A DNA stretch of 47,121 nucleotides from a virus. The notes under the pieces are model-generated. The model ran no database searches and was not told where the DNA came from. It was given only the letters and a program-made list of their open reading frames with translations. The position numbers and the translations under genes were made by a program. Position 1 is the first letter of the stretch; the number at the start of each line of letters is the position of its first letter. Positions 1 through 47,121 of the stretch are shown piece by piece. The stretch covers positions 1 to 47,121 of IMG/VR virus record IMGVR_UViG_3300049927_000067. One strand, given 5' to 3'.

Positions 1-127
1 GGCCGTCCACTCGGTTGTACTCAGCCAATGCGGGGCCGGTCACGCGCTCGTACTCAGCCCGTCCTTCAGGTGAAAGGAGCTTAGATGCAAAGTCCCAATC
101 GAACTTGTCGAAGTGCTTTTTGCAAAG
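1..127. repeat. Terminal direct overlap, left copy
   Basis: These 127 bases are identical to the last 127 bases of the window. An exact overlap of 127 is the signature of a circular contig from a k=127 assembler, so this is most likely an assembly overlap and not a biological terminal repeat. It lies inside a repeat-rich gene, and the same 127 bases occur a third time at 46423-46549, so closure of the circle rests on repetitive sequence. Confidence 0.9.
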
Positions 128-238
128 GGCTTCAGTGACGTTGACGGAATCGCCAAACAGTTGACGGAACCGGTCGACTTGCTCGGTACAGGCGTGGATC
201 GCGATGAGCTGGTCGAGGTGCAATTTGCGCGTTTTCAC
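1..238 (-). CDS. Hendecad-repeat protein, N-terminal part (continues at 46994)
   Basis: This is the 5' part of a gene that runs off the left edge and, on the circle, continues from 46994 down to 46657. The joined product would be about 191 residues: 60 of conserved N-terminal domain, 11 tandem 11-residue units and a 10-residue tail. The start is GTG at 238, overlapping the TGA of the upstream paralogue (GTGA, 235-238). The N-terminal domain is encoded by 59-238, and bases 1-58 encode the first units. It is nearly identical to the start of the copy at 46382-46660, so the two are a recent duplication. Function unknown. Confidence 0.75.
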   Translation of the reverse strand, partial: MKTRKLHLDQLIAIHACTEQVDRFRQLFGDSVNVTEALCKKHFDKFDWDFASKLLSPEGRAEYERVTGPALAEYNRVDG

Positions 239-1110
239 TTCCCACCCTCCGCAATGTACAAACGCCCCCATGCGGGGCCGCGCACGCGATTGTACTCAGC
301 CGATGCGGGGTCGTTCACGCGATTGTACTCAGCCCGTGCGAGGTCGGTCACGCGGGTGTACTCAGCCCGTGCGAGGTCGCGCACGCGATCGTACTCAGCC
401 CATGCCGGGCCGTTCACGCGCGCGTACTCAGCCCATGCGGGGTCGTTCACGCGATTGTACTCAGCCCGTGCGAGGTCGGTCACGCGGGTGTACTCAGCCC
501 GTGCGAGGTCGCGCACGCGATTGTACTCAGCCGATGCGAGGTCGTTCACGCGATTGTACTCAGCCCATGCGGGGCCGCGCACGCGATTGTACTCAGCCCG
601 TGCGGGGCCGCGCACGCGGTCGTACTCAGCCCATGCGGGGCCGCGCACGCGGTCGTACTCAGCCCATGCGGGGCCGCGCACGCGGTTGTACTCAGCCCGT
701 GCGAGGTCGCGCACGCGATTGTACTCAGCCAATGCGAGGTCGTTCACGCGATTGTACTCAGCCCATGCGGGGCCGCGCACGCGATTGTACTCAGCCGATG
801 CGGGGCCGCACACGCGATTGTACTCAGCCCGTGCGAGGTCGCGCACGCGATTGTACTCAGCCAATGCGAGGTCGTTCACGCGATTGTACTCAGCCCATGC
901 GAGGTCGGTCACGCGATCGTACCCAGCCCGCCCTTCAGGTGAAAGGAGCTTAGATGCAAAACCCCAATCGAACTTGTCGAAGTGCTTTTTGCAAAGGGCT
1001 TCAGTGACGTTGACGGAATCGCCAAACAGTTTACGGAAACGTTCGACTTGCTCGGTACAAGCGTTGATCGCTATGAGCTGGTTGATGTGCAAAATTCGTG
1101 ATGGGTTCAT
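235..1110 (-). CDS. Hendecad-repeat protein, 20 units (longest copy)
   Basis: This 291-residue protein has three parts. Residues 1-61 are a conserved domain with the cores ACTEQVERF, SVNVTEALCKKHFDKFDW and LLSPEGR. Residues 62-281 are 20 perfect 11-residue units of pattern AEYxRVxx[P/L]Ax. Residues 282-291 are the tail GRLYIAEGGK. A GGAG ribosome site lies 8 bases before ATG 1110. Blocks of three units (RDLAR, then T-containing TDLAR, then NDPA) recur inside the array, a sign of internal duplication. Half of the units have Pro at position 9 and half Leu. I recognise no function. The opposite strand is open in the array only because 33 is a multiple of three. Confidence 0.9.
   Translation of the reverse strand: MNPSRILHINQLIAINACTEQVERFRKLFGDSVNVTEALCKKHFDKFDWGFASKLLSPEGRAGYDRVTDLAWAEYNRVNDLALAEYNRVRDLARAEYNRVCGPASAEYNRVRGPAWAEYNRVNDLALAEYNRVRDLARAEYNRVRGPAWAEYDRVRGPAWAEYDRVRGPARAEYNRVRGPAWAEYNRVNDLASAEYNRVRDLARAEYTRVTDLARAEYNRVNDPAWAEYARVNGPAWAEYDRVRDLARAEYTRVTDLARAEYNRVNDPASAEYNRVRGPAWGRLYIAEGGK
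268..927 (-). repeat. 33-bp tandem array, 20 units
   Basis: Twenty in-frame units of 33 bp in the longest paralogue. Codons 1, 2, 3, 5, 6 and 10 of each unit are nearly fixed (Ala, Glu, Tyr, Arg, Val, Ala). Codons 4, 7, 8, 9 and 11 vary, mostly by first- or second-base changes that alter the amino acid. Units have no spacers between them. Confidence 0.95.
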
Positions 1111-2602: not shown

Positions 2603-2803
2603 TTAGCGGACTCCCGTGTAGTTAAGTCGGCGCGCATCGCCGCACGCGCGCCGTATGTCGTGTTTGCTCATGCAAAGAGTGACGGCGCCTAGGTCCATTT
2701 CGCGAAATGCTTTGTACATGCCTATCCGCGAGCGCATCCAAGACTCAACCATAAGCCGCTGCGCGCGACCTTTGGAGTCGGTGAATTCGGTATAGCCGTT
2801 CAC
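2603..2803 (-). CDS. Small protein, coupled to a repeat gene
   Basis: 66 residues from GTG 2803, which overlaps the TGA of the repeat gene as GTGA. The N-terminus (GYTEFTDSKGRAQRL) matches the start of the remnant at 3454-3531, so this gene or a relative once also stood behind another repeat gene. It is basic and has MSKHDIRRACG near its end. The apparent N-terminal extension to 2902 lies inside the repeat array and is an artefact. Function unknown. Confidence 0.65.
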   Translation of the reverse strand: MNGYTEFTDSKGRAQRLMVESWMRSRIGMYKAFREMDLGAVTLCMSKHDIRRACGDARRLNYTGVR

Positions 2804-3411
2804 TTCCCGCCCTCCGCAATGTACAAACGCCCCCATGCGAGGCCGCGCACGCGGTTGTACTCGGCCAATGCGGGGCCGGTCACGCGGTCGTACTCGACCC
2901 ATGCGAGGCCGGTCACGCGGTCGTACTCGGCCAATGCGAGGTCGTTCACGCGATTGTACTCAGCCCGTGCGAGGTCGGTCACGCGATCGTACTCGACCCA
3001 TGCGAGGCCGTCCACGCGGTTGTACTCGGCCAATGCGGGGCCGTTCACGCGCGCGTACTCAGCCCGTGCGAGGCCGCGCACGCGATTGTACTCAGCCAAT
3101 GCGGGGTCGTTCACGCGATTGTACTCAGCCCGTGCGGGGCCGCGCACGCGGTCGTACTCAGCCCATGCGGGGCCGCGCACGCGATTGTACTCAGCCGATG
3201 CGGGGCCGGTCACGCGCTCGTACTCAGCCCGTCCTTCAGGTGAAAGGAGCTTAGATGCAAAGTCCCAATCGAACTTGTCGAAGTGCTTTTTGCAAAGGGC
3301 TTCAGTGACATTGACGGAATCGCCAAATAATGAACGGAAACGTTCGACTTGCCCGGTACAGGCGTGGATCGCAATGAGCTGATCAACACGCAGAATTCGA
3401 GATTGGTTCAT
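2800..3411 (-). CDS. Hendecad-repeat protein, 12 units
   Basis: 203 residues: a conserved domain (1-61), twelve 11-residue units (62-193) and the tail GRLYIAEGGK. It starts at ATG 3411 behind the same GGAG-containing leader (CCGGAGTAGTTAC) used by the copy at 235-1110, so the leader was copied with the gene. Two units begin Val-Glu-Tyr instead of Ala-Glu-Tyr. Position 7 takes Arg, Asn, Asp and Thr. The stop overlaps the next start as GTGA. Confidence 0.9.
   Translation of the reverse strand: MNQSRILRVDQLIAIHACTGQVERFRSLFGDSVNVTEALCKKHFDKFDWDFASKLLSPEGRAEYERVTGPASAEYNRVRGPAWAEYDRVRGPARAEYNRVNDPALAEYNRVRGLARAEYARVNGPALAEYNRVDGLAWVEYDRVTDLARAEYNRVNDLALAEYDRVTGLAWVEYDRVTGPALAEYNRVRGLAWGRLYIAEGGK
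2833..3228 (-). repeat. 33-bp tandem array, 12 units
   Basis: Twelve in-frame units of the same 33-bp repeat as at 268-927, in a different order of variants. GP, GL, DP and DL all occur at unit positions 8-9. Confidence 0.95.
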
Positions 3412-3531
3412 GTAACTACTCCGGTTTCAAATAATACCATATTTGAATCGATGCTATACCAACCTACCAGATCCGCGCGAGCTTTTTCTTTCGCGGCCTT
3501 TGGCGTCGGTGAATTCTGTATGGCCGCTCAC
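3412..3531 (-). pseudogene. Chimeric remnant of two neighbouring small genes
   Basis: GTG 3531 overlaps the stop of the next repeat gene and begins VSGHTEFTDAKGR, matching the start of the gene at 2603-2803 (VNGYTEFTDSKGR). The frame stops at 3454. In another frame the DNA then reads AKEKARADLVGWY, matching the C-terminal part of the protein at 1115-1294 (TKEKARADLIGRY). The last 16 bases before the next ATG are identical to those before ATG 1110. It looks like the 5' end of one gene fused out of frame to the 3' end of another. Confidence 0.7.
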
Positions 3532-3944
3532 TTCCCGCCCTCCGCGATATACAAACGCGCCCATGCGAGGCCGCACACGCGGTCGTACTCGGCCCGTGCG
3601 AGGTCGCGCACGCGGTCGTACTCAGCCCATGCGGGGCCGGTCACGCGGTCGTACTCGGCCAATGCGAGGCCGTGCACGCGATTGTACTCAGCCCGTGCGA
3701 GGCCGCGCACGCGATTGTACTCGGCCCGCCCTTCAGGTGAAAGGAGCTTAGATGCAAAACCCCAATCGAACTTGTCGAAGTGCTTTTTGCAAAGGGCTTC
3801 AGTGACATTGACGGAATCGCCAAACAGTTTACGGAAACGTTCGACCTGTTCGGTACAGGCATTGATCGCAGTTAGCTGGTTGATATGCAACTTGCGTGAG
3901 CGGGCCTTACGGGGGGCTTTCTTGGCGGGTTTGCGGGTTTTCAT
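3528..3944 (-). CDS. Hendecad-repeat protein, 5 units
   Basis: 138 residues. It has an extra basic N-terminus (MKTRKPAKKAPRKARSRK) shared only with the copy at 41414-42034, then the conserved domain to residue 73, five 11-residue units (74-128) and the tail ARLYIAEGGK. ATG 3944 overlaps the upstream TGA as ATGA. The basic stretch could bind nucleic acid or membranes; this is inference. It is one of the two shortest arrays in the family and contains the only His at unit position 7. Confidence 0.88.
   Translation of the reverse strand: MKTRKPAKKAPRKARSRKLHINQLTAINACTEQVERFRKLFGDSVNVTEALCKKHFDKFDWGFASKLLSPEGRAEYNRVRGLARAEYNRVHGLALAEYDRVTGPAWAEYDRVRDLARAEYDRVCGLAWARLYIAEGGK
3561..3725 (-). repeat. 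33-bp tandem array, 5 units
   Basis: Five in-frame 33-bp units of the same family, with Arg, His, Thr, Arg and Cys at unit position 7. Confidence 0.93.
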
Positions 3945-6012: not shown

Positions 6013-6087
6013 GGGCGGCTCGTCTACCCGGTAAGACAGCGGTCTCCAAAACCGCAAAACGCAGTTCGAGTCTGTGGCCGCCTGCCA
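6013..6087 (+). tRNA. tRNA-Trp (CCA)
   Basis: A full cloverleaf of 75 nt. The acceptor arm pairs GGGCGGC with GCCGCCT (one G-U). The D stem is GTCT/AGAC, the anticodon stem GCGGT/ACCGC with loop CTCCAAA (anticodon CCA, U33 present), and the T arm CGCAG/CTGTG with loop TTCGAGT. Discriminator G73 and the 3' CCA are encoded. It may supply Trp-tRNA for UGG codons, which are frequent in the phage's own 11-residue repeat proteins; that link is speculative. Confidence 0.92.
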
Positions 6088-6660: not shown

Positions 6661-8292
6661 ATGTCACAAGCCACCCACGGCTTGCGCAAATCGGACATTG
6701 CGCGGGAATTGCTGCGTCGGCGCCGCTGCCAAGAGTCACTACACTCCTTTGCGTTGAACATTCAAATGCCGACGGTGCCGAACGCGCCGATGTACCCGGA
6801 TGAAGACCTGCTTGGACCGGCAGCGAACTTCATGGCCAAGCACCACGCGGTGATTTTGTCGTGTCTGCAGCGCACGATGATGAAGCCGATGGGCCGGGCG
6901 CTGCTAATGCTGCCGCCGGGTTCGGCCAAGTCCCTATACGCAGATTGCGTCGCGACGACTTGGTACATGGGCAAGTTCCCGGGAACCAGGATAATGCTCA
7001 CTTCTTACCAGGGTGACTTGGCCGAGCGGCAGTCGGGGCGCGCGCAGTTCATCGTTGAGCAAGACGACTATCGGCTGATCTTCGGCGAGGACTGCAAGAT
7101 CGCCAAGAACGCCAAGAAAGACTGGCTGCTCGAGAACGGCAGCAATATGCTGGCGATGGGTCTGACCGGCGGCTTGACCGGCAACCGCGCCAATGGCTGG
7201 ATCATTGACGATCCGATCTCGGGGCGCAAAGAGGCGGACTCCGAGACGCAGCAACAGGATTGCTACAACGCGTACAAGGATGACTTGCTGACCCGCTCAC
7301 TGCCCAACGCGTGGGGCGTCATCATTCTCACGCGGTGGTGCGAGATGGACATCGCGGGGCGCATCCTGCCAGATGACTACGACGGGCGCAGCGGCATAGT
7401 GCGGTGTAAGGACGGGCTCGACTGGGAAGTGCTAAACATCCCGGCGAAGTGCGAACGCTCGGACGACCCGCTCGGCCGGAAGATCGGTGAGTACATCTGG
7501 CCCGAGTATTATCCGCCGGAGCACTGGGCGATGTTTGAAAACGCACAGGGGCATGAGTCGGCGCGTACCTGGTCGAGCCTGTATCAGCAGCGGCCGACGC
7601 CTCAAGGGTCGGATCGGTTCCACGAAACAATGTTCGACTTCTACAAGCCGGGCACCGAGCCCCCGTACCTGGCGTACGTCGGCGCGGGCGACTACGCGGT
7701 CACGGAAGGGCGTAACGATTTCACCGAGCTCGGCGTCTTCGGCGTAGATCCGCAGGGGGATCTGTGGGAAGTCGACTGGTGGAGCAAGCAGAGCAACACC
7801 GGGGTATCGTGCGAGCAGACGATCGATATGATGAAGAAGTGGAAAACTTCGATGTGGTTTCACGAGCAGGGCGTCATAGACCGCGCAATGGGACCCCTAA
7901 TTAATCTGCGCATGCGTCAGCGGAACCAGAACGGAGAAAACGTGTACTGCGACCGCCGCGGCGTGCCGTCAATGGCCGATAAGCTGGCGAAGTGCGCATC
8001 ATTCCAGGGCAGGGCAACATCGGGCGGGGAGAAGGGTGATGGGACGTTTAACCCCGGCTCTGTGCATTTCAGGGACAATGCCAACAGTCGTCGCATTGTC
8101 CAGCAGTTGGTTTCCTTGCCCGCAGGAAGATACGATGATTGTGCCGATGTATGCGGCTTAATCGGTCGCGCTATGGATCAATTTGCCGTTGGCCGTGTGC
8201 CGGTCAACGTGCCGCGCAAGCAGTTGATCCCGTTCACGCCGGAGTGGTTTGAGACGCAGGAGCACGACAAACCGAAGGTTCGTTGGCGATGA
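6661..8292 (+). CDS. terL: Terminase large subunit
   Basis: 543 residues. The ATPase domain has a Walker A-like LPPGSAKS (about 84-91), Walker B WIIDD (180-184) and the coupling motif ILTRW (222-226). The C-terminal RNase H-like nuclease shows AGDYAVTEG near residue 345. It pumps DNA into the prohead through the portal and cuts concatemers. It is full length for the family. The packaging mode (headful or cohesive end) cannot be told from sequence alone here. Confidence 0.95.
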   Translation: MSQATHGLRKSDIARELLRRRRCQESLHSFALNIQMPTVPNAPMYPDEDLLGPAANFMAKHHAVILSCLQRTMMKPMGRALLMLPPGSAKSLYADCVATTWYMGKFPGTRIMLTSYQGDLAERQSGRAQFIVEQDDYRLIFGEDCKIAKNAKKDWLLENGSNMLAMGLTGGLTGNRANGWIIDDPISGRKEADSETQQQDCYNAYKDDLLTRSLPNAWGVIILTRWCEMDIAGRILPDDYDGRSGIVRCKDGLDWEVLNIPAKCERSDDPLGRKIGEYIWPEYYPPEHWAMFENAQGHESARTWSSLYQQRPTPQGSDRFHETMFDFYKPGTEPPYLAYVGAGDYAVTEGRNDFTELGVFGVDPQGDLWEVDWWSKQSNTGVSCEQTIDMMKKWKTSMWFHEQGVIDRAMGPLINLRMRQRNQNGENVYCDRRGVPSMADKLAKCASFQGRATSGGEKGDGTFNPGSVHFRDNANSRRIVQQLVSLPAGRYDDCADVCGLIGRAMDQFAVGRVPVNVPRKQLIPFTPEWFETQEHDKPKVRWR

Positions 8293-8328
8293 TTGACGTA
8301 GTTCACACTTTGCGGTAGCTTGCCAGAC

Positions 8329-9321
8329 ATGACCCACCCATCAAGTCACTTTGCCGGCAAAGTTGTGCTCGTCACGGGCGCCGGTGGCTCTATCGGCTCG
8401 GAAATTTGCCGATGGCTCGATCAAATGCCGCTCCAGGAACTGCGAATTCTCGGCCACAGCGAAGCGCCGCTGTACGAAGTCGACAAGACTTTGACAAGCA
8501 AGCGTATCGTGAAGATTCTCGCCTCCTGCACCGACGGACGGGCGATGGCCGCCGCCTGCGAAGGCGCCGACATCGTGATCCACGCCGCCGCGCACAAACA
8601 CGTCCCGCTGTGCGAGCAGAACCCCATCGAAGCAGTCTTCAACAACGTTGGCGGAACCGTGACGCTTGCCGAAGCTGCGAGCCGCGCGGGCTGCCGACAG
8701 TTCGTACTCATCTCGAGCGACAAGGCCGTGAAGCCTTCCTCGATCATGGGCGCCACGAAGCGCGCGTGCGAGCTGTTCATAAAGTTCCTATCTACTCGCT
8801 CGTCTACGAAGTTCACGACCGTGCGCTTCGGCAATGTCATGGACTCAAGCGGGTCCGTACTGCCACTCTGGGAAGAACAATTGGAAAGCGGCAAGAAGAT
8901 CACGTTGACCGACCGACGCTGCTATCGTTTTTTCATGTCGATCCCCGAGGCAGTTGAACTCACGCTCGGCGCGGCGTCACTGCCGCGCGACGGGCTCTAC
9001 GTACTCGGCATGGGGCCGGCGAAGAATCTCGGCGACATGGCAGTGGACACAGTCAACGAGTTCTGCTGGGAAAAGGGGTATAACCCCGCGAACCCGTGGA
9101 ACATGATCGTAGAGACCGGCCTGCGCCCCGGCGAGAAGCTCGTCGAAGAACTTACATATGGCGGCGAATCAACACTAACGTTGATTCCGCGTGTTCTTTC
9201 GTTGTGCGAGAACGGGCCGACGCGCCTGTTGCGCTGGGATGATTTCAGCGATTTGCTGATGTCGGCGAGTTGCCGGCACAAACAGATGACGCTTGAAAAA
9301 CTTTGGAGCATCGTATCGTGA
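8329..9321 (+). CDS. NAD-dependent sugar epimerase/dehydratase (CapD-like)
   Basis: 330 residues from ATG 8329; a TTG at 8320 is an alternative start. The Rossmann motif VTGAGGSIGSE lies near the N-terminus. The sequence SSDKAVKPSSIMGATKR is the catalytic region of the CapD/FlaA1 group of short-chain dehydrogenases, in which Met replaces the usual Tyr of YxxxK. These enzymes dehydrate or epimerise UDP-GlcNAc-type nucleotides. It is the first gene of a sugar cassette between terminase and portal and is coupled (GTGA) to the next gene. Confidence 0.85.
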   Translation: MTHPSSHFAGKVVLVTGAGGSIGSEICRWLDQMPLQELRILGHSEAPLYEVDKTLTSKRIVKILASCTDGRAMAAACEGADIVIHAAAHKHVPLCEQNPIEAVFNNVGGTVTLAEAASRAGCRQFVLISSDKAVKPSSIMGATKRACELFIKFLSTRSSTKFTTVRFGNVMDSSGSVLPLWEEQLESGKKITLTDRRCYRFFMSIPEAVELTLGAASLPRDGLYVLGMGPAKNLGDMAVDTVNEFCWEKGYNPANPWNMIVETGLRPGEKLVEELTYGGESTLTLIPRVLSLCENGPTRLLRWDDFSDLLMSASCRHKQMTLEKLWSIVS

Positions 9322-10091
9322 CTACGACAAAGGTAGTGATCGTGGGGGCCGGCTACGTCGGCCAGGGTATGCTCAGGATTTTCCCGGACGCCGACATCGT
9401 CGACCCCGCGCTCGGCCGCCCGTACACCGATACGCACTACGATCTCGCCGTGATCTGCGTTCCCTCGCCGATGAACCCCGACGGCTCGTGCGACACGGGC
9501 ATCGTCGAGTACGCCGTCAAGACCGTCAAGGCCGACCTCATCTTGGTGAAGTCGACTGTGACGCCAAGAACGTGCATTAACTTGGTGCTCGACACTGGCA
9601 AGAACGTCGTCTTCTCGCCCGAGTATATGGGCGAGTCGAGATATTGGACCCCTGCGTGGGCGCCAAACCCGACAGATCCGATAGGCCACGGCTTCGTCAT
9701 TCTCGGGGGCTTCAACCCGCACTGCTCGGCAGTCGCCGACATCCTGATGCCGATCCTCGGCCCCGCGACGCGCTTTCGCTTCATGGGCCACACCGAGGCG
9801 GAACTGGTGAAATACGCCGAGAACAGCTTCTTTTCGATGAAGGTGACATTCGCCAACGAGCTGCGCCGCATTTGCGAGCGCGCGGGGGCTAACTACCACT
9901 TGGTGCGCGAAGGTTGGCTTGACGATCCGCGCGTGGGGCCGATGCACACTGCGGCGTTCAAGCGGGCGCCGGGCTTCAGCGGCAAGTGCCTGCCGAAAGA
10001 CACCGCCGCACTCGCTGCGTACTGCCGCACGCTTGGGATGAACCCGAAGCTGCTCGATGCGGTGCTCGAAGTGAATCAAGATTCGCAGTGA
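9318..10091 (+). CDS. Short UDP-glucose/GDP-mannose 6-dehydrogenase-like protein
   Basis: 257 residues from GTG 9318 (GTGA overlap with the gene before). It has the NAD-binding motif VVIVGAGYVG (6-15), the central-helix residues of the family (Asn168, Lys175, Asn-Glu 180-181) and the catalytic Cys224 in GFSGKCLPKD. Cellular enzymes are about 390-450 residues. This one ends soon after the catalytic Cys and lacks the C-terminal nucleotide-binding domain. It may oxidise a hexose nucleotide to the uronate, but the missing domain makes substrate and activity uncertain. Confidence 0.85.
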   Translation: MTTTKVVIVGAGYVGQGMLRIFPDADIVDPALGRPYTDTHYDLAVICVPSPMNPDGSCDTGIVEYAVKTVKADLILVKSTVTPRTCINLVLDTGKNVVFSPEYMGESRYWTPAWAPNPTDPIGHGFVILGGFNPHCSAVADILMPILGPATRFRFMGHTEAELVKYAENSFFSMKVTFANELRRICERAGANYHLVREGWLDDPRVGPMHTAAFKRAPGFSGKCLPKDTAALAAYCRTLGMNPKLLDAVLEVNQDSQ

Positions 10092-10867
10092 AACCGCTAA
10101 TAACGATGATCGTGCCTTACTACCGCCAGCCGAAGATGCTAGCAAAGCAACTGTACAATTGGTGCTACCCAGGGTTCCCGCGAAACAGCTTCGAGCTACT
10201 CGTCGTGGACGACTGCTCGCCGGAGCCGGCGAACGCAGTGGTGCAGGAGCAAATGCCGGGCAGTACCCGGCCGCACTTTTCGCTCTACCGCATCGATAAA
10301 GACGTTGCGTGGAATCGCGGAATGGCCCGCAATTTAGGCACGAAGGCGGCGACCACGCCTTACATACTGCACGTCGACACCGACCACATTTTGACCGCGC
10401 AGAATGCCGCCAACCTTCTAACGACAGTGCGCTCTTTTGTAGGCGCGGTGCCGAAATGGTTCCGCTTTTCGCGTCGGCGCATTGGCGCGGCCGACGAGAC
10501 GCGAAAGAAAGACAAGGCCGACCCGAACGCAACGGACGTACGCATCCATCCGCACATCGATAGCTATCTCACGACGCCAGACGCGTTTTGGAAAGCCGGG
10601 GGCTATAACACGCGCTTTTCTGGCATTCTAGGCGGGGGCACGCCTTTCCTGAAGGAGATGGAGCGCGTCAACGGCGAACCCGGTCTTCTCGAAGGCACCG
10701 AGTTGCAAGTTCACACTCGCCATTCCGTCCCTGATTCGAGCGAGCACACGCTGCCGCGCAGCCCCGAAGCCTTCAAGAAGCGAAAGCAGGAGATCATGGC
10801 GAAATACGGAACGCTGCGAGCTGACCCGAAAGAAGCGCTGCCGTTACCGTGGCATCGCGTCCTATGA
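10088..10867 (+). CDS. Family 2 glycosyltransferase
   Basis: 259 residues from GTG 10088, which overlaps the previous TGA as GTGA. The GT-A fold signature is clear: ITMIVPYYRQ at the start, VVDDCSP (39-45), WNRGMARNLG (75-84) and the metal-binding DTD in HVDTDH (97-99). It would transfer a sugar from a nucleotide donor, perhaps one made by the two enzymes upstream. The acceptor (virion protein, phage DNA or host surface glycan) is unknown. Confidence 0.88.
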   Translation: MKPLITMIVPYYRQPKMLAKQLYNWCYPGFPRNSFELLVVDDCSPEPANAVVQEQMPGSTRPHFSLYRIDKDVAWNRGMARNLGTKAATTPYILHVDTDHILTAQNAANLLTTVRSFVGAVPKWFRFSRRRIGAADETRKKDKADPNATDVRIHPHIDSYLTTPDAFWKAGGYNTRFSGILGGGTPFLKEMERVNGEPGLLEGTELQVHTRHSVPDSSEHTLPRSPEAFKKRKQEIMAKYGTLRADPKEALPLPWHRVL

Positions 10868-12723: not shown

Positions 12724-15006
12724 ATGAGTGTCCCCGCTGCTTCTGTAAGTGCCGGCATTGCCGGAGCTGTCGACCAAGGCGTACGTCTAGGCGACGGCGA
12801 GGACGCGATCCCAGAAGGCGAGCTGGAACTCGTCAAAAAGACGATCAAAGAATACGACACCGCTCGCGCGTTCGACAAGAACCAGCGCCACCGCTACGCG
12901 CGCGACCGGCGCTACGCCGCCGGCACCTCGAATCCGACTTGGGCCTCCGATGCGAACATCATTGGCGCCTACATCGACATTATCGCAAGTTTCCTCTACG
13001 CGAAAGACCCGGATGTCAGCGCGCGCCCTGCGGCGCATGTCAAAGCGCCGCCTCCGCCTCCGATGCCGCCCATGCTAGGTATCCCGGGGGCTACCGGATC
13101 ACCGATTCCGGGCGCTCCTGTCGCCCCGGGGCCACCGCCGGACCCGATGGCAGCCTTTAGCGGCGCTCCGGCGCCCGTAGATCCGCTCGCGGGGCCCGCA
13201 GGACCGCCTGGGTTGGCCGATCCGCTGGCCGCAATGGGTGCACCTGTCGCCCCGCCGATGCCGGCCGCGCAAGTTGAGCCGATTGAAGTCAAGGATGCGG
13301 CTCGGTTTGCCGAAACGGCGCAAATCGTCATCAGCAAGTCCTGGAAACGGGCGAACTTGAAGCGCACTATGAAACGCGTGCTCCGCTCGGCGCTCTCCAT
13401 CGGCCCGGGCTGGTTCAAATCCTACATTTACTCCGAAAAGGGTCGAAATCCGCTGGTTGAGAAGGAGTTGAAGGACGCGCGCGATAATCTCGAGCGCATC
13501 GAGAAGCTCCAGAACGACTTGACAGGCTTGACGGACGATCAAGACCCGCCGGAACTCACTGCGGAGGAGCTGAAGCTCCAGATCGCGGGCATGGAAGCTC
13601 GAATCGAGCTTATGACGAAGCGCGGGCAGTGCATCGACTTCATACGTGCCGAAGATATCCAAACGAGCCTTGACGTGCCGACTTTGGCTGACTATCGCGA
13701 CGCGGACTGGATTTCACACGATCTTTACATCGAAAAAGACACCGCCAAAGGCCGTTTTCCGCGCCTGACGGACGAACAGATCAAGCGCGCGACCGAATAC
13801 GTGCAGCGTGCAAACGCACAACAAGTTCAGCCGATCGACGGGTTCGTTACGGCGGATCTGGCGGTCCCCGAAGGCCTGTACATGAAGGCTACGGACAACG
13901 CGGGCCAAGGCTCGGGTACCGGCGGCAAGGACTCGGGCGTCAAGTTTGTCAAGATCGTGGAGATGTGGGACCACCGGGACCTGAACGTCAAGACCTTCAT
14001 GGATGGCGTTGAACGCTGGGCGGTCGAACCGTACCCGCCCGAACACGCCGCTTCTCGCTTTTTTCCGTTCTTCCAGCTTTCCTTGTTTGAAGTCGACGGT
14101 GCGCGCCACCCTCAGTCGATGGTGGACCGCACGTGGAAGCTGCAGGACGAGTACAGCTCGCGCCGCTCGAGCGGTCGTAAGACTCGCGAGCGATCGATCC
14201 CGGGTACCATTTTCAACTCCGGCGAACTCACGCCCGATGAAATCCAGAAGATAGAGAAAAGCACCGAGCAGGAGTTCGTTGGGGTTCGCACCACGACCCC
14301 CGGTGCTGACATCAACAAGATAATGGGGGCGAAGCCGATTCCGAACATCGACCCCGCCATTTTCGCGACGACTGATATTCTGTATGACTTCAACGTTGTT
14401 ACCGGCGTTCAGGAAGCGCTGTCTTCGGGCGACTCCAACACCAACACGGCGACCGAAGCCGACATCCAGCAGTCTGGCTTTGCTTCGCGCACGGGCGCGG
14501 ATCGCGATGTCGAAGAGGAGCTTCTCACCGAGTTCGCGCAGTACACGCTCGAAATAGCCGTACAGGGCCTGACCGCGCGCGATGTCGCGAAGATGGCCGG
14601 CCCGTACGCGTTCTGGCCCGAGGGCATGGATGTCGAAGACATTCTGACGCTCGTTGAAGTCGAAGTCGAAGCCGGCACCACGGGCAAGCCGCGCGCGCAG
14701 GCCGACAAGGAAACTTGGGCTACGCTGCTTCCGATTCTTATGCAACTCGTGCCGCAGATCCGTCTGTCCGAACAGACCGGTGATCTTGGAATGGCCGAAA
14801 CGCTCAAAAATATTCTGTCCGAAACGCTCAAGCGACTTGACGACCGCCTCTCCTTGGAGAGCATACTCGCGCCAAGCACCGCGCCGCCGGTAGCGCCTGG
14901 TATGCCCGGCCTGGCCGCTCCTTCCGCCCTACCCGGCGCGGGCGCCCCTCCGATCGGCAACGGAACAGTTAACAATCCGGCTGCGCAAGGCGCGCCGGTC
15001 GCATAA
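12724..15006 (+). CDS. Portal protein with a proline-rich insertion
   Basis: 760 residues. Size, position after terminase and before scaffold, and long acidic/helical segments fit a podovirus portal, the 12-fold ring through which DNA enters and which holds the tail. Residues about 108-185 are an insertion of almost pure Pro, Ala, Gly and Met (runs such as PPPPPMPPM), and the last 45 residues are again Pro/Ala-rich. Such segments are probably flexible and exposed. An AGGA site precedes ATG 12724. Confidence 0.85.
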   Translation: MSVPAASVSAGIAGAVDQGVRLGDGEDAIPEGELELVKKTIKEYDTARAFDKNQRHRYARDRRYAAGTSNPTWASDANIIGAYIDIIASFLYAKDPDVSARPAAHVKAPPPPPMPPMLGIPGATGSPIPGAPVAPGPPPDPMAAFSGAPAPVDPLAGPAGPPGLADPLAAMGAPVAPPMPAAQVEPIEVKDAARFAETAQIVISKSWKRANLKRTMKRVLRSALSIGPGWFKSYIYSEKGRNPLVEKELKDARDNLERIEKLQNDLTGLTDDQDPPELTAEELKLQIAGMEARIELMTKRGQCIDFIRAEDIQTSLDVPTLADYRDADWISHDLYIEKDTAKGRFPRLTDEQIKRATEYVQRANAQQVQPIDGFVTADLAVPEGLYMKATDNAGQGSGTGGKDSGVKFVKIVEMWDHRDLNVKTFMDGVERWAVEPYPPEHAASRFFPFFQLSLFEVDGARHPQSMVDRTWKLQDEYSSRRSSGRKTRERSIPGTIFNSGELTPDEIQKIEKSTEQEFVGVRTTTPGADINKIMGAKPIPNIDPAIFATTDILYDFNVVTGVQEALSSGDSNTNTATEADIQQSGFASRTGADRDVEEELLTEFAQYTLEIAVQGLTARDVAKMAGPYAFWPEGMDVEDILTLVEVEVEAGTTGKPRAQADKETWATLLPILMQLVPQIRLSEQTGDLGMAETLKNILSETLKRLDDRLSLESILAPSTAPPVAPGMPGLAAPSALPGAGAPPIGNGTVNNPAAQGAPVA

Positions 15007-41085: not shown

Positions 41086-41417
41086 GGCGTAGCCTGTGCG
41101 TAGAGTTTTTCGGGCGCAGTCTCGAAGTACAGAAACAGCGCCGGGCATAGCCAGCCCACACGCCCCGTATCCGCTTGGTACCAGGTACCGCCGTGCTCGG
41201 CGTGTAACCGAGTAAGTGACACACGCGCGCCGGGGAATGGCGCAGCAGAAAACAGCAGCGTGAAGCCGCGATCGGCGTGCTGGATATCTGCAACGAGCGC
41301 GTCAATGATCTCGCCCATGCCGGCCACAAACGGCTCGCGCTTCAAGCGCACGGTCGGATCATCGAACACCCATGTACCGCCTATGCTGTATGGGCGAACC
41401 GCTAGTATGGAGTTCAC
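41082..41417 (-). CDS. DUF6717-like conserved phage protein
   Basis: 111 residues from GTG 41417, overlapping the TGA of the repeat gene as GTGA. The segments RPYSIGGTWVFDDP, LKREPFVAGMGEIIDALVAD, LLFSAAPFPG, GTWYQADTGRVGWLCPALF match my memory of the DUF6717 family, which is frequent in phages and some bacterial genomes and has no known function. The apparent upstream extension belongs to the repeat gene in another frame. Confidence 0.75.
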   Translation of the reverse strand: MNSILAVRPYSIGGTWVFDDPTVRLKREPFVAGMGEIIDALVADIQHADRGFTLLFSAAPFPGARVSLTRLHAEHGGTWYQADTGRVGWLCPALFLYFETAPEKLYAQATP

Positions 41418-42034
41418 TTCCCACCCTCCGCGATATACAAACGCCCCCATGCGAGGCCGCACACGCGCTTGTACTCGGCCAATGCGGGGTCGCGCACGCG
41501 GTTGTACTCGGCCAATGCGGGGTCGCGCACGCGGTTGTACTCGGCCAATGCGAGGCCGCGCACGCGATTGTACTCAGCCGATGCGAGGTCGGTCACGCGG
41601 TCGTACTCAGCCAATGCGAGGTCGCGCACGCGGTTGTACTCGGCCAGTGCGGGGCCGTCCACGCGCGCGTACTCAGCCCGTGCGAGGTCGGTCACGCGGT
41701 CGTACTCAGCCAATGCGAGGCCGCGCACGCGCTCGTACTCGGCCAATGCAGGGTCGCGCACGCGGTTGTACTCGGCCCATGCGGGGCCGCACACGCGGTC
41801 ATACTCGGCCCGTCCTTCAGGTGAAAGGAGCCTAGATGCAAAACCCCAATCGAACTTGTCGAAGTGCTTTTTGCAAAGGGCTTCAGTGACATTGACGGAA
41901 TCGCCAAATAATGAACGGAAACGTTCGACCTGTTCGGTACAGGCATTGATCGCAGTTAGCTGGTTGATATGCAACTTGCGTGAGCGGGCCTTACGGGGGG
42001 CTTTCTTGGCGGGTTTGCGGGTTTTCATTTTCAC
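41414..42034 (-). CDS. Hendecad-repeat protein, 11 units
   Basis: 206 residues. An AGGAG site lies 6 bases before GTG 42034; an in-frame ATG at 42028 is the alternative. It shares the basic N-terminus KTRKPAKKAPRKARSRK with the copy at 3528-3944. The conserved domain runs to residue 75, followed by eleven 11-residue units and the tail GRLYIAEGGK. This copy is rich in Leu at unit position 11 and includes two adjacent identical units (NRVRDPAL). It stands alone among replication genes, about 8 kb from the main cluster on the circle. Confidence 0.9.
   Translation of the reverse strand: MKMKTRKPAKKAPRKARSRKLHINQLTAINACTEQVERFRSLFGDSVNVTEALCKKHFDKFDWGFASRLLSPEGRAEYDRVCGPAWAEYNRVRDPALAEYERVRGLALAEYDRVTDLARAEYARVDGPALAEYNRVRDLALAEYDRVTDLASAEYNRVRGLALAEYNRVRDPALAEYNRVRDPALAEYKRVCGLAWGRLYIAEGGK
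41447..41809 (-). repeat. 33-bp tandem array, 11 units
   Basis: Eleven in-frame units. The variants at position 7 are Cys, Arg, Thr and Asp. Two consecutive units are identical at the protein level, a sign of recent unit duplication. Confidence 0.93.
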
Positions 42035-45565: not shown

Positions 45566-45679
45566 TTACCGGGGTGTTCTCCAGGTGTGTTGACGCCAGT
45601 TGTGAACGATACACCGCGGATCGGGGGCTGGCAAAACCCCTCGCGTACGATCAAGAAACCGGCGCAGCCGGGCGGTCAT
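45566..45679 (-). CDS. Very short basic ORF coupled to a repeat gene
   Basis: 37 residues (MTARLRRFLDRTRG at the start), ATG 45679 overlapping the TGA of the repeat gene as ATGA. Every other repeat gene in the window is coupled in the same way to a following frame, which supports translation. Strongly basic. It may equally be a remnant. Confidence 0.35.
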   Translation of the reverse strand: MTARLRRFLDRTRGVLPAPDPRCIVHNWRQHTWRTPR

Positions 45680-46119
45680 TTCCCACCCTCCGCAATGTAC
45701 AAACGCCCCCATGCGGGGCCGCGCACGCGGTCGTACTCAGCCCATGCGGGGCCGCACACGCGGTCGTACTCGACCAATGCGAGGTCGTTCACGCGATTGT
45801 ACTCAGCCCGTGCGAGGTCGGTCACGCGGGTGTACTCGACCCATGCGAGGCCGTCCACGCGGTTGTACTCAGCCAATGCGGGGCCGGTCACGCGATTGTA
45901 CTCAGCCAATGCGGGGCCGGTCACGCGCTTGTACTCGGCCCGCCCTTCAGGTGAAAGGAGCTTAGATGCAAAGTCCCAATCGAACTTGTCGAAGTGCTTT
46001 TTGCAACGGGCTTCAGTGACGTTGACTGATTCGCCAAACAGTTGACGGAACCGGTCGACTTGCTCGGTACAGGCGTGGATCGCAATGAGCTGGTCGAGGT
46101 GCAGTTTGCGCGTTTTCAT
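45676..46119 (-). CDS. Hendecad-repeat protein, 7 units
   Basis: 147 residues: conserved domain (1-60, here with GESVNVTEARC in place of GDSVNVTEALC), seven 11-residue units and the tail GRLYIAEGGK. ATG 46119 shares a base with the upstream TAA (TAATG). Two units begin Val-Glu-Tyr. The first unit has Lys at position 4, otherwise seen only in the final unit of the copy at 41414-42034. Confidence 0.9.
   Translation of the reverse strand: MKTRKLHLDQLIAIHACTEQVDRFRQLFGESVNVTEARCKKHFDKFDWDFASKLLSPEGRAEYKRVTGPALAEYNRVTGPALAEYNRVDGLAWVEYTRVTDLARAEYNRVNDLALVEYDRVCGPAWAEYDRVRGPAWGRLYIAEGGK
45709..45939 (-). repeat. 33-bp tandem array, 7 units
   Basis: Seven in-frame units of the shared 33-bp repeat; position 7 is Thr, Thr, Asp, Thr, Asn, Cys, Arg in order. 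Confidence 0.93.
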
Positions 46120-46385
46120 TAATCCATCCTCCGCATGATCTCATGCACTTTATCGTGCACGGCTTCAGCTATACCGGCGTTGCCGCCTCGATGTATTTCG
46201 TTATCCCATTTGCTAACTACTATGGGCGCAATTGCTACCACGAGCTGGCGCTGTAGATCCCTATCGATGCCATTCTGCGGCGCTCGAGCTGCCTCGACGT
46301 GCTGCCTAGTGTAGTTGGCGTGCATGGCACAGACCGACATGAGCTTACCTTCGCGTACTTCGCAGCCGCATTTCAGCCGATTCAT
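46119..46385 (-). CDS. Small Cys-containing protein between two repeat genes
   Basis: 88 residues from ATG 46385 (ATGA overlap with a repeat gene). The N-terminus KCGCEVREGKLMSVCAMH resembles the CGC...MCEPC part of the protein at 1115-1294, a possible zinc knuckle. The rest is helical (NEIHRGGNAGIAEAVHDKVH). Both neighbours are repeat genes. Function unknown. Confidence 0.65.
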   Translation of the reverse strand: MNRLKCGCEVREGKLMSVCAMHANYTRQHVEAARAPQNGIDRDLQRQLVVAIAPIVVSKWDNEIHRGGNAGIAEAVHDKVHEIMRRMD

Positions 46386-46660
46386 TTCCCACCCTCCGCA
46401 ATGTACAAACGCCCCCATGCGGGGCCGTCCACTCGGTTGTACTCAGCCAATGCGGGGCCGGTCACGCGCTCGTACTCAGCCCGTCCTTCAGGTGAAAGGA
46501 GCTTAGATGCAAAGTCCCAATCGAACTTGTCGAAGTGCTTTTTGCAAAGGGCTTCAGTGACGTTGACGGAATCGCCAAACAGTTGACGGAACCGGTCGAC
46601 TTGCTCGGTACAGGCGTGGATCGCGATGAGCTGGTCGAGGTGCAATTTGCGCGTTTTCAC
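46382..46660 (-). CDS. Hendecad-repeat protein, 2 units (shortest copy)
   Basis: 92 residues from GTG 46660 (GTGA overlap): the full 60-residue conserved domain, only two 11-residue units (ERVTGPAL, NRVDGPAW) and the tail GRLYIAEGGK. Its conserved domain is identical in DNA to that of the copy spanning the contig joint. The array may have shrunk by recombination between units, so this copy shows what the fixed parts need at minimum. Confidence 0.85.
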   Translation of the reverse strand: MKTRKLHLDQLIAIHACTEQVDRFRQLFGDSVNVTEALCKKHFDKFDWDFASKLLSPEGRAEYERVTGPALAEYNRVDGPAWGRLYIAEGGK

Positions 46661-46769
46661 TTCCCACCCTCCGCAATGTACAAACGCCCCCATGCGGGGC
46701 CGCGCACGCGATTGTACTCAGCCGATGCGGGGTCGTTCACGCGATTGTACTCAGCCCGTGCGAGGTCGG
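46423..46769. repeat. 347-bp exact duplicate of 1-347
   Basis: Bases 46423-46769 are identical to 1-347; the first difference is T348 versus C46770. The segment covers the N-terminal part of one repeat gene, the GTGA junction and the 3' end of the repeat gene before it, so a whole gene-junction unit was duplicated in tandem. It is longer than the 127-base overlap at the contig ends. Confidence 0.9.
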
Positions 46770-47121
46770 CCACGCGGGTGTACTCAGCCCGTGCGAGGTC
46801 GCGCACGCGATTGTACTCAGCCCGTGCGAGGTCGCGCACGCGGTCGTACTCAGCCCATGCGGGGCCGCGCACGCGATTGTACTCAGCCCGTGCGAGGTCG
46901 CGCACGCGATTGTACTCAGCCAATGCGAGGTCGTTCACGCGATTGTACTCGGCCCATGCGGGGCCGCACACGCGGTCGTACTCGACCCATGCGAGGCCGT
47001 CCACTCGGTTGTACTCAGCCAATGCGGGGCCGGTCACGCGCTCGTACTCAGCCCGTCCTTCAGGTGAAAGGAGCTTAGATGCAAAGTCCCAATCGAACTT
47101 GTCGAAGTGCTTTTTGCAAAG
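46657..47121 (-). CDS. Hendecad-repeat protein, C-terminal part (start lies at 238 on the circle)
   Basis: The 3' part of the gene that begins at GTG 238. It reads through eleven 11-residue units (46690-47052) to the tail GRLYIAEGGK. Bases 46995-47121 duplicate 1-127, so on the circle the gene is counted once, with about 191 residues. It contains the only Ala at unit position 7 in the window (TRVADLAR). The stop overlaps the next start as GTGA. Confidence 0.85.
   Translation of the reverse strand, partial: LCKKHFDKFDWDFASKLLSPEGRAEYERVTGPALAEYNRVDGLAWVEYDRVCGPAWAEYNRVNDLALAEYNRVRDLARAEYNRVRGPAWAEYDRVRDLARAEYNRVRDLARAEYTRVADLARAEYNRVNDPASAEYNRVRGPAWGRLYIAEGGK
46690..47052 (-). repeat. 33-bp tandem array, 11 units
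   Basis: Eleven in-frame units. The last five before the tail are nearly the same in order as the end of the 20-unit array at 268-927 (T-containing unit, NDPAS, RGPAW), in line with the 347-bp duplication. Confidence 0.93.
46995..47121. repeat. Terminal direct overlap, right copy
   Basis: Identical to bases 1-127. Removing one copy leaves a circle of 46,994 bp in which the leftward operon reads continuously across the joint. Confidence 0.9.

Follow-up and report, generated by a model that had tools for sequence, protein, structure and literature searches.

The virus record IMGVR_UViG_3300049927_000067 from IMG/VR contains a family of 11-residue repeats, 68 units in seven genes, in which a few set positions vary and the codons of the other positions are frozen, silent bases included. 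The repeat protein is uncatalogued, and its unit recurs across many unrelated phages. The likeliest mechanism, to which we give about an even chance, is that the repeats form an arm whose surface is diversified for binding. The whole stretch analysed, positions 1 to 47,121 of the record, is called the window.

The units are distributed over genes g1 through g7 as 20, 12, 5, 11, 7, 2, and 11, respectively (sum 68). The genes are as follows:

235..1110, minus strand: g1, 291 amino acids; head, 20 units, and tail GRLYIAEGGK
2800..3411, minus strand: g2, 203 amino acids, 12 units
3528..3944, minus strand: g3, 138 amino acids, 5 units
41414..42034, minus strand: g4, 206 amino acids from the GTG at 42034 or 204 from the ATG at 42028; 11 units
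45676..46119, minus strand: g5, 147 amino acids, 7 units
46382..46660, minus strand: g6, 2 units; its GTG start overlaps the g7 stop (GTGA)
46657..47121, minus strand: g7, 3' part, 11 units; open at the contig end
1..238, minus strand: g7, 5' part, head and first units; its GTG start overlaps the g1 stop; meets 47121 via a 127-bp end overlap

A recount matched exactly the preliminary description of this DNA, which had put the number of 11-residue units in the seven leftward genes at 68 and listed the residues at each position; all seven genes lie on the minus strand. In g1, a head of about 60 residues (ILHINQL..ACTEQVERFRKLFGDSVNVTEALCKKHFDKFDWGFASKLLSPEGR) is followed by units of the form AEYNRVRGPAW and the tail GRLYIAEGGK, and this plan of head, units, and tail is common to g1 and the other six genes. 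Tandem Repeats Finder scores for the window repeats reached 969, and the reversed protein pattern gave no matches in the 19 records tested, compared with 51 forward matches in the window; the repeats are therefore far beyond chance.

All seven copies end in GCGGAGGG(T/C)GGGAARTGA, which encodes AEGGK and a stop and also contains a ribosome-binding site, together with a start codon (ATG or GTG) that overlaps this stop. The copy in g1 is:

235..254, minus strand: conserved gene end GCGGAGGGTGGGAARTGA; AEGGK and stop, also ribosome-binding site and RTG start of the next frame

The RTGA overlap was found in 7/7 window copies. The overlapping start opens the next repeat gene after g1 and g7, and a different gene after g2, g4, and g6. 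Because the start codon overlaps the preceding stop, the copies are probably translationally coupled cassettes.

The contig ends overlap by 127 identical bases (1–127 = 46995–47121) inside a repeat gene, and g7, which is split over them (271..1 and 47121..46657), is whole only when the ends are joined. Joining is plausible because the overlap is exact, yet not proven, because the same 127-mer has a third copy within g6, the gene at 46382 (the copies start at 1, 46423, and 46995). The overlap looks like an assembler k-mer overlap within a repeat gene. The longer starts called for the 2-unit g6 and the split g7 are probably wrong; the more likely start is the GTG overlapping the stop before it (GTGA). 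The ends of a 44-kb relative (L022/L024) likewise share 118 bp inside a repeat gene; with these shared ends, the L009 and L024 arrays are possibly different genes, and their comparison as orthologues was dropped.

The minus-strand unit holding the repeat genes also encodes DNA polymerase A, a primase, a helicase, a DUF2800 exonuclease, and an Enc34-like ssDNA-binding protein. A phage lysozyme gene shares this unit, and an early time of transcription is therefore likely but not certain. Location beside the replication genes is consistent with the host- or defence-directed role that had been suggested for the proteins. A tRNA-Trp (cca) gene lies at 6013–6087, just upstream of the rightward terminase unit, and a 760-residue protein of the rightward unit (12724–15006) had no PHROG match at E ≤ 0.001.

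Within the 68 window units, the fixed positions were A1 (63/68), E2 (67/68), Y3, R5, V6, and A10 (68 each). Position 4 was N in 37, D in 18, T in 4, E in 4, A in 3, and K in 2; position 7 was R in 28, T in 15, N in 12, C in 6, D in 5, and H and A in 1 each; position 8 was G in 38 and D in 30; position 9 was L in 35 and P in 33; and position 11 was W in 24, L in 20, R in 18, and S in 6. These counts agree with the earlier division into fixed positions (1, 2, 3, 5, 6, and 10) and variable ones.

For a wider sample, a back-translated DNA pattern of one and a half units was searched in IMG/VR. It matched at least 118 stretches, and 158 distinct arrays were extracted from these; each array has 3 to 21 units, and together they hold 1257. 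Over these units the entropies at positions 4, 7, 8, 9, and 11 were 2.8, 3.3, 2.4, 2.6, and 2.8 bits, respectively. The other positions had 0.5–1.4 bits, a conservation that is partly by construction because the array finder scores the fixed positions; the variable positions are unconstrained by it. Confinement of the variation to a few set positions thus extends to many phages, with positions 4, 7, 8, and 11, plus 9, varying in all 158 arrays.

On a wheel of 11 residues per three turns, the mean within-array entropy was 1.27 at position 7 (229°), 1.49 at position 11 (262°), 1.13 at position 4 (295°), and 0.54 at position 8 (327°), compared with 0.06–0.30 bits at the fixed positions. These four positions form one arc, 229–327°, as had been claimed. 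Position 9 is just as variable, with a within-array entropy of 1.10 bits, and lies at 65°, on the fixed side, opposite the arc. The proposal of a fixed core with a diversified face is therefore largely supported by the single arc and by the amino-acid-changing nature of the variation described below, but the variation of position 9 on the fixed side does not fit it. The fixed face is also not a pure hydrophobic core, because it includes E2 and R/K5.

Amino-acid-changing and silent differences between units were compared in the arrays. In 82 of 85 contigs, second-base differences at the variable codons exceeded four-fold silent differences (medians 0.30 and 0.026; sign test, 5e-21). For 121 arrays the corresponding values were 0.30 and 0.06, and pN exceeded pS at the variable positions in 107 of them. 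There is thus an excess of amino-acid change at the variable positions. Fixed codons of the window are frozen down to their silent bases (GTG and GCA, 68/68; TAC, 67/68; CGC, 66/68), and differences among the variable codons are nearly all at the first or second base, position 7 always being NNC; position 4 is an exception, with some silent T/C variation. Elsewhere, only CCA/CAA and TGG/TTG vary in the full units of L010, and only ACG/AGG, GCG/CCG, and TTG/TGG/TCG in the listed units of G004.

Silent third bases at fixed codons differed by 0.037 within the arrays of the window and its relative and by 0.341 between the window and a related phage, a ninefold rise, whereas variable-codon differences hardly changed (0.363 within arrays, 0.376 between paralogues, and 0.376 between the window and the related phage). 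As judged from these differences, the alternatives at the variable residues are held at equilibrium while the arrays are homogenised around them. Codon bias was rejected as the cause of this uniformity at silent bases: the window units have GCA for A10 (68/68) but GCT or GCC for A1, and in the related phage both alanines are GCG. Identical 33-bp units are common to the window paralogues.

Arrays also change between close relatives. Among phages 99.7–99.8% alike, one pair differs by an inserted unit (L065/L086, 11 versus 12) and another by two deleted units (L084/L128, 9 versus 11), and in a third (L042/L100) units 1–2 were converted to forms present elsewhere in the array. Further near-identical pairs, several of them from different samples, had identical arrays. 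Unit order is shuffled, near neighbours being hardly more alike than distant units (lag-1 z for identical units, −0.34). All of these sequences are from metagenome assemblies, probably short-read, in which unit order and number may be wrong, and short-read assemblies are known to be unreliable for comparable repeat arrays (PMC12222747).

A related phage (L009, L022/L024) has a head and units of the window type, and in another phage (AEYNKIKDPAW)n follows a head of a very different kind, MCEFISW... The heads that precede the arrays are of at least six dissimilar types:

Head 1 (window type): ACxxQV..FDWxWAAxxLL
Head 2: MCEFISW..GHGAIR..NFPxEIV
Head 3: MCxGFG..SHSxIL..LPGW
Head 4: HCHHE..EPAENRIxYIL
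Head 5: FAKWLN..ACxxxLxW..GDWLEWLL; tail RTLxPYPFK
Head 6: short head ending in DDxxWLL; tail ENILS

The window-type head was also found without any unit in two large viral contigs (L030, 4992–5297; L032, 4974–5237). L132 contains seven arrays within about 3.4 kb (7131–10526), several of the genes being coupled head to tail, and a 77-kb phage (L057/L081) has 57 pattern matches across several paralogues. Neither the window head nor the array had a relative above cut-off in named phages, plasmids, Pfam, PHROGs, NCBIfam, or PDB sequences; the sole match of a single head-profile scan of a genome collection, a Saliphagus enzyme gene, was spurious. The literature covered, which excluded preprints and most subscription journals, contained nothing pertinent on the motif or on phage repeats of 11 residues or 33 bp.

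AlphaFold2 was run on g4 with a 24-sequence family alignment. The model has a compact head at residues 18–68 and helices at 71–134 and 138–203 (mean pLDDT, 92.3; pTM, 0.75), confidence being lowest (about 70) at the tip of the hairpin. For a relative whose head is unrelated, the helices were placed at 96–149 and 152–202 (mean pLDDT, 89.6; pTM, 0.73). Because the helix break falls mid-array in both models, the simplest reading is a predicted antiparallel helical hairpin whose length follows the number of units, bearing in mind that AlphaFold2 tends toward confident long helices on repetitive Ala/Glu-rich sequence. Proline, which occupies position 9 in half the units, is unusual inside a helix, and kinked helices had been expected from it; the models instead show two long helices with one mid-array break and no break per Pro. 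As the modelled helices are continuous, positions 4, 7, 8, and 11 would form one outward stripe, and V6, A10, and Y3 a hydrophobic stripe. Covariation of mirror pairs between the two arms reached z 4.3 at position 11 and was gone once the last unit was dropped, an end effect. Fold searches with both models gave no match at E ≤ 0.001; the top PDB fold matches, none of them significant, were the generic helical hairpins of SH3BP5, PACSIN F-BAR, and PI3K iSH2.

The mechanism that we favour would work as follows. Each gene would encode a small α/β head and, after it, a long helical arm in which every unit has 11 residues and makes three turns. This arm would fold back as an antiparallel hairpin, its length set by the number of units, and the conserved C-terminal tail would return toward the head. 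A1, E2, Y3, R/K5, V/I6, and A10 would hold the two helices together, residues 4, 7, 8, and 11 would present a patterned outer surface, and residue 9 would modulate the backbone. Duplication, loss, and conversion of units, between neighbours as well as between paralogues, would keep silent sites uniform, while selection would keep the surface residues unlike from unit to unit. From this pattern we infer that the most likely use would be to bind one or several variable partners during infection, probably proteins of the host or of rival elements.

The main rival, which we consider unlikely but still the most serious, is that the variation serves the protein itself: unlike units would keep the arms in register and prevent aggregation and mispairing of units or paralogues, with no outside partner. 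A hairpin of near-identical helices, as predicted, would suit such a rule, as would a small set of alternatives that is steady in every phage and the lack of detectable near-neighbour similarity (lag-1 z, −0.34), which is unlike fresh tandem duplication. However, selection against like neighbours would make adjacent units less alike than random, which they are not, and the positions that vary most would, as far as the prediction goes, be remote from the likely interface. The repeat might also be a neutral, slippage-prone helical spacer whose exposed positions are free to vary. Growth and shrinkage of the arrays, the head-only relatives (L030 and L032), and the tolerance of exposed helix positions to change all agree with this, but drift cannot yield units in which second-base differences amount to 0.30 and four-fold silent ones to 0.026, and codon bias does not account for the silent uniformity (A10 GCA versus A1 GCT/GCC; GCG in the relative). 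We therefore regard a neutral spacer as improbable.

Somewhat less probable again is an explanation at the level of DNA, in which a portable in-frame cassette inserts into small genes of phages and reshuffles them through recombination, supplying the gene that follows with a ribosome-binding site and start codon. Such a cassette would explain the same unit on at least six unlike heads, the coupled SD and RTGA start ending 7/7 window copies, and the identical 33-bp units that paralogues have in common; it leaves unexplained why the variation is confined to amino acids, since silent sites, the cheapest DNA change, do not vary. Targeted mutagenesis by a diversity-generating retroelement or a similar system would concentrate mutations in few codons, as observed, and the window codons at position 7 are all reachable from AAC by changing A. 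No reverse transcriptase (RVT_1) was found in the window or 10 related records, however; the bases that change in positions 9 and 11 are C/T and G/T rather than A, and the second base of position 7 is never T, making this source very improbable. We give the least credence of all to an assembly artefact, with short-read repeats collapsed or chimeric. The contig ends do lie inside repeat genes and have a 127-mer in common, and such arrays are assembled unreliably from short reads (PMC12222747), but the units recur independently, with different codons, in dozens of contigs, several sample pairs give identical arrays, and misassembly could alter order and number without producing uniform silent sites with varied amino acids.

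Among known systems, the HNWD arrays (het-d/het-e/het-r) of Podospora anserina consist of uniform WD40 repeats in which a few diversifying sites set recognition specificity (PMC2873952, PMC12222747). The phage repeats resemble them in near-identical units, concerted evolution, few hypervariable sites per unit, gain, loss, and conversion of units, and paralogues sharing units. The HNWD units, each about 40 residues long, are WD40 β-propeller blades of a fungal STAND receptor whose partner is known, whereas the phage units have 11 residues, a helical AlphaFold2 model, no NTPase, no sequence relation to HNWD, and no Pfam match above cut-off. The evolutionary mode of the phage repeats matches that of the HNWD arrays: silent homogenisation, few hypervariable positions, and, with the short-read caveat, gain, loss, and conversion of units were all found.

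TALE repeats are DNA-uniform helical units of 34 residues (33–35), each with two helices and two variable residues, that form a superhelix on DNA. The phage repeats are likewise DNA-uniform helical tandem units with few varying codons per unit and variable array length, but have 11 residues, five variable positions, a predicted hairpin, no family match, and no sign of DNA binding. With hendecad (11-residue, three-turn) coiled coils they have in common the 11-residue period and long helices that are predicted to pair with one another; they differ in an unusually uniform sequence, Pro in about half of the units, and diversified, putatively outward positions. The lipid-binding repeats of perilipin, α-synuclein, and apolipoproteins are also 11-residue helical units, but the variation and phage location are unlike them, and membership was rejected by score (Perilipin_2, 16.4 bits versus a cut-off of 30.1; Apolipoprotein, 16.6 versus 90). 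Like the phage units, the tandem DNA repeats of archaeal Borgs lie in frame in a mobile genome, evolve fast, and have a uniform nucleotide sequence (PMC9879509). Borg amino-acid tandem repeats are perfect and commonly disordered (PMC9879509), whereas the phage units are uniform at the fixed positions only, predicted to be helical, and one family in unrelated phages. A phrog_18326-type protein of Methanomicrobiales virus BK063670 was 38% identical over 45 amino acids to one alternative head (E, 0.01). It resembles the phage proteins in its small GAC...DW(M/L)LW head, Ala-rich repetitive stretch, and conserved end, and differs in that the stretch lacks the AEYx(R/K)V unit. In BK063670.1 (L151, 1483–2010) a GAC..DWMLWAL head precedes this different Ala-rich stretch, and other repeats may fill the same slot.

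Diversity-generating retroelements are the textbook route by which phage proteins diversify, and to our knowledge few phage proteins diversify through reshuffling of tandem units. We suggest, tentatively, that the proteins may represent a widespread and unrecognised class of modular recognition proteins of phages, in which a portable 11-residue helical repeat on many different small heads forms hairpin arms of varying length. Recombination would continually re-sort the surface of these arms and selection would keep it diverse, which would make them phage equivalents of the variable repeat arrays found in immune receptors. The short, well-defined unit is suited to expression, structure solution, and the finding of partners. 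If the suggestion is correct, an abundant repeat family with frozen silent sites and varied surface residues, present in many unrelated phages and on many heads, would indicate that its diversification is driven by a sufficiently strong molecular interaction.
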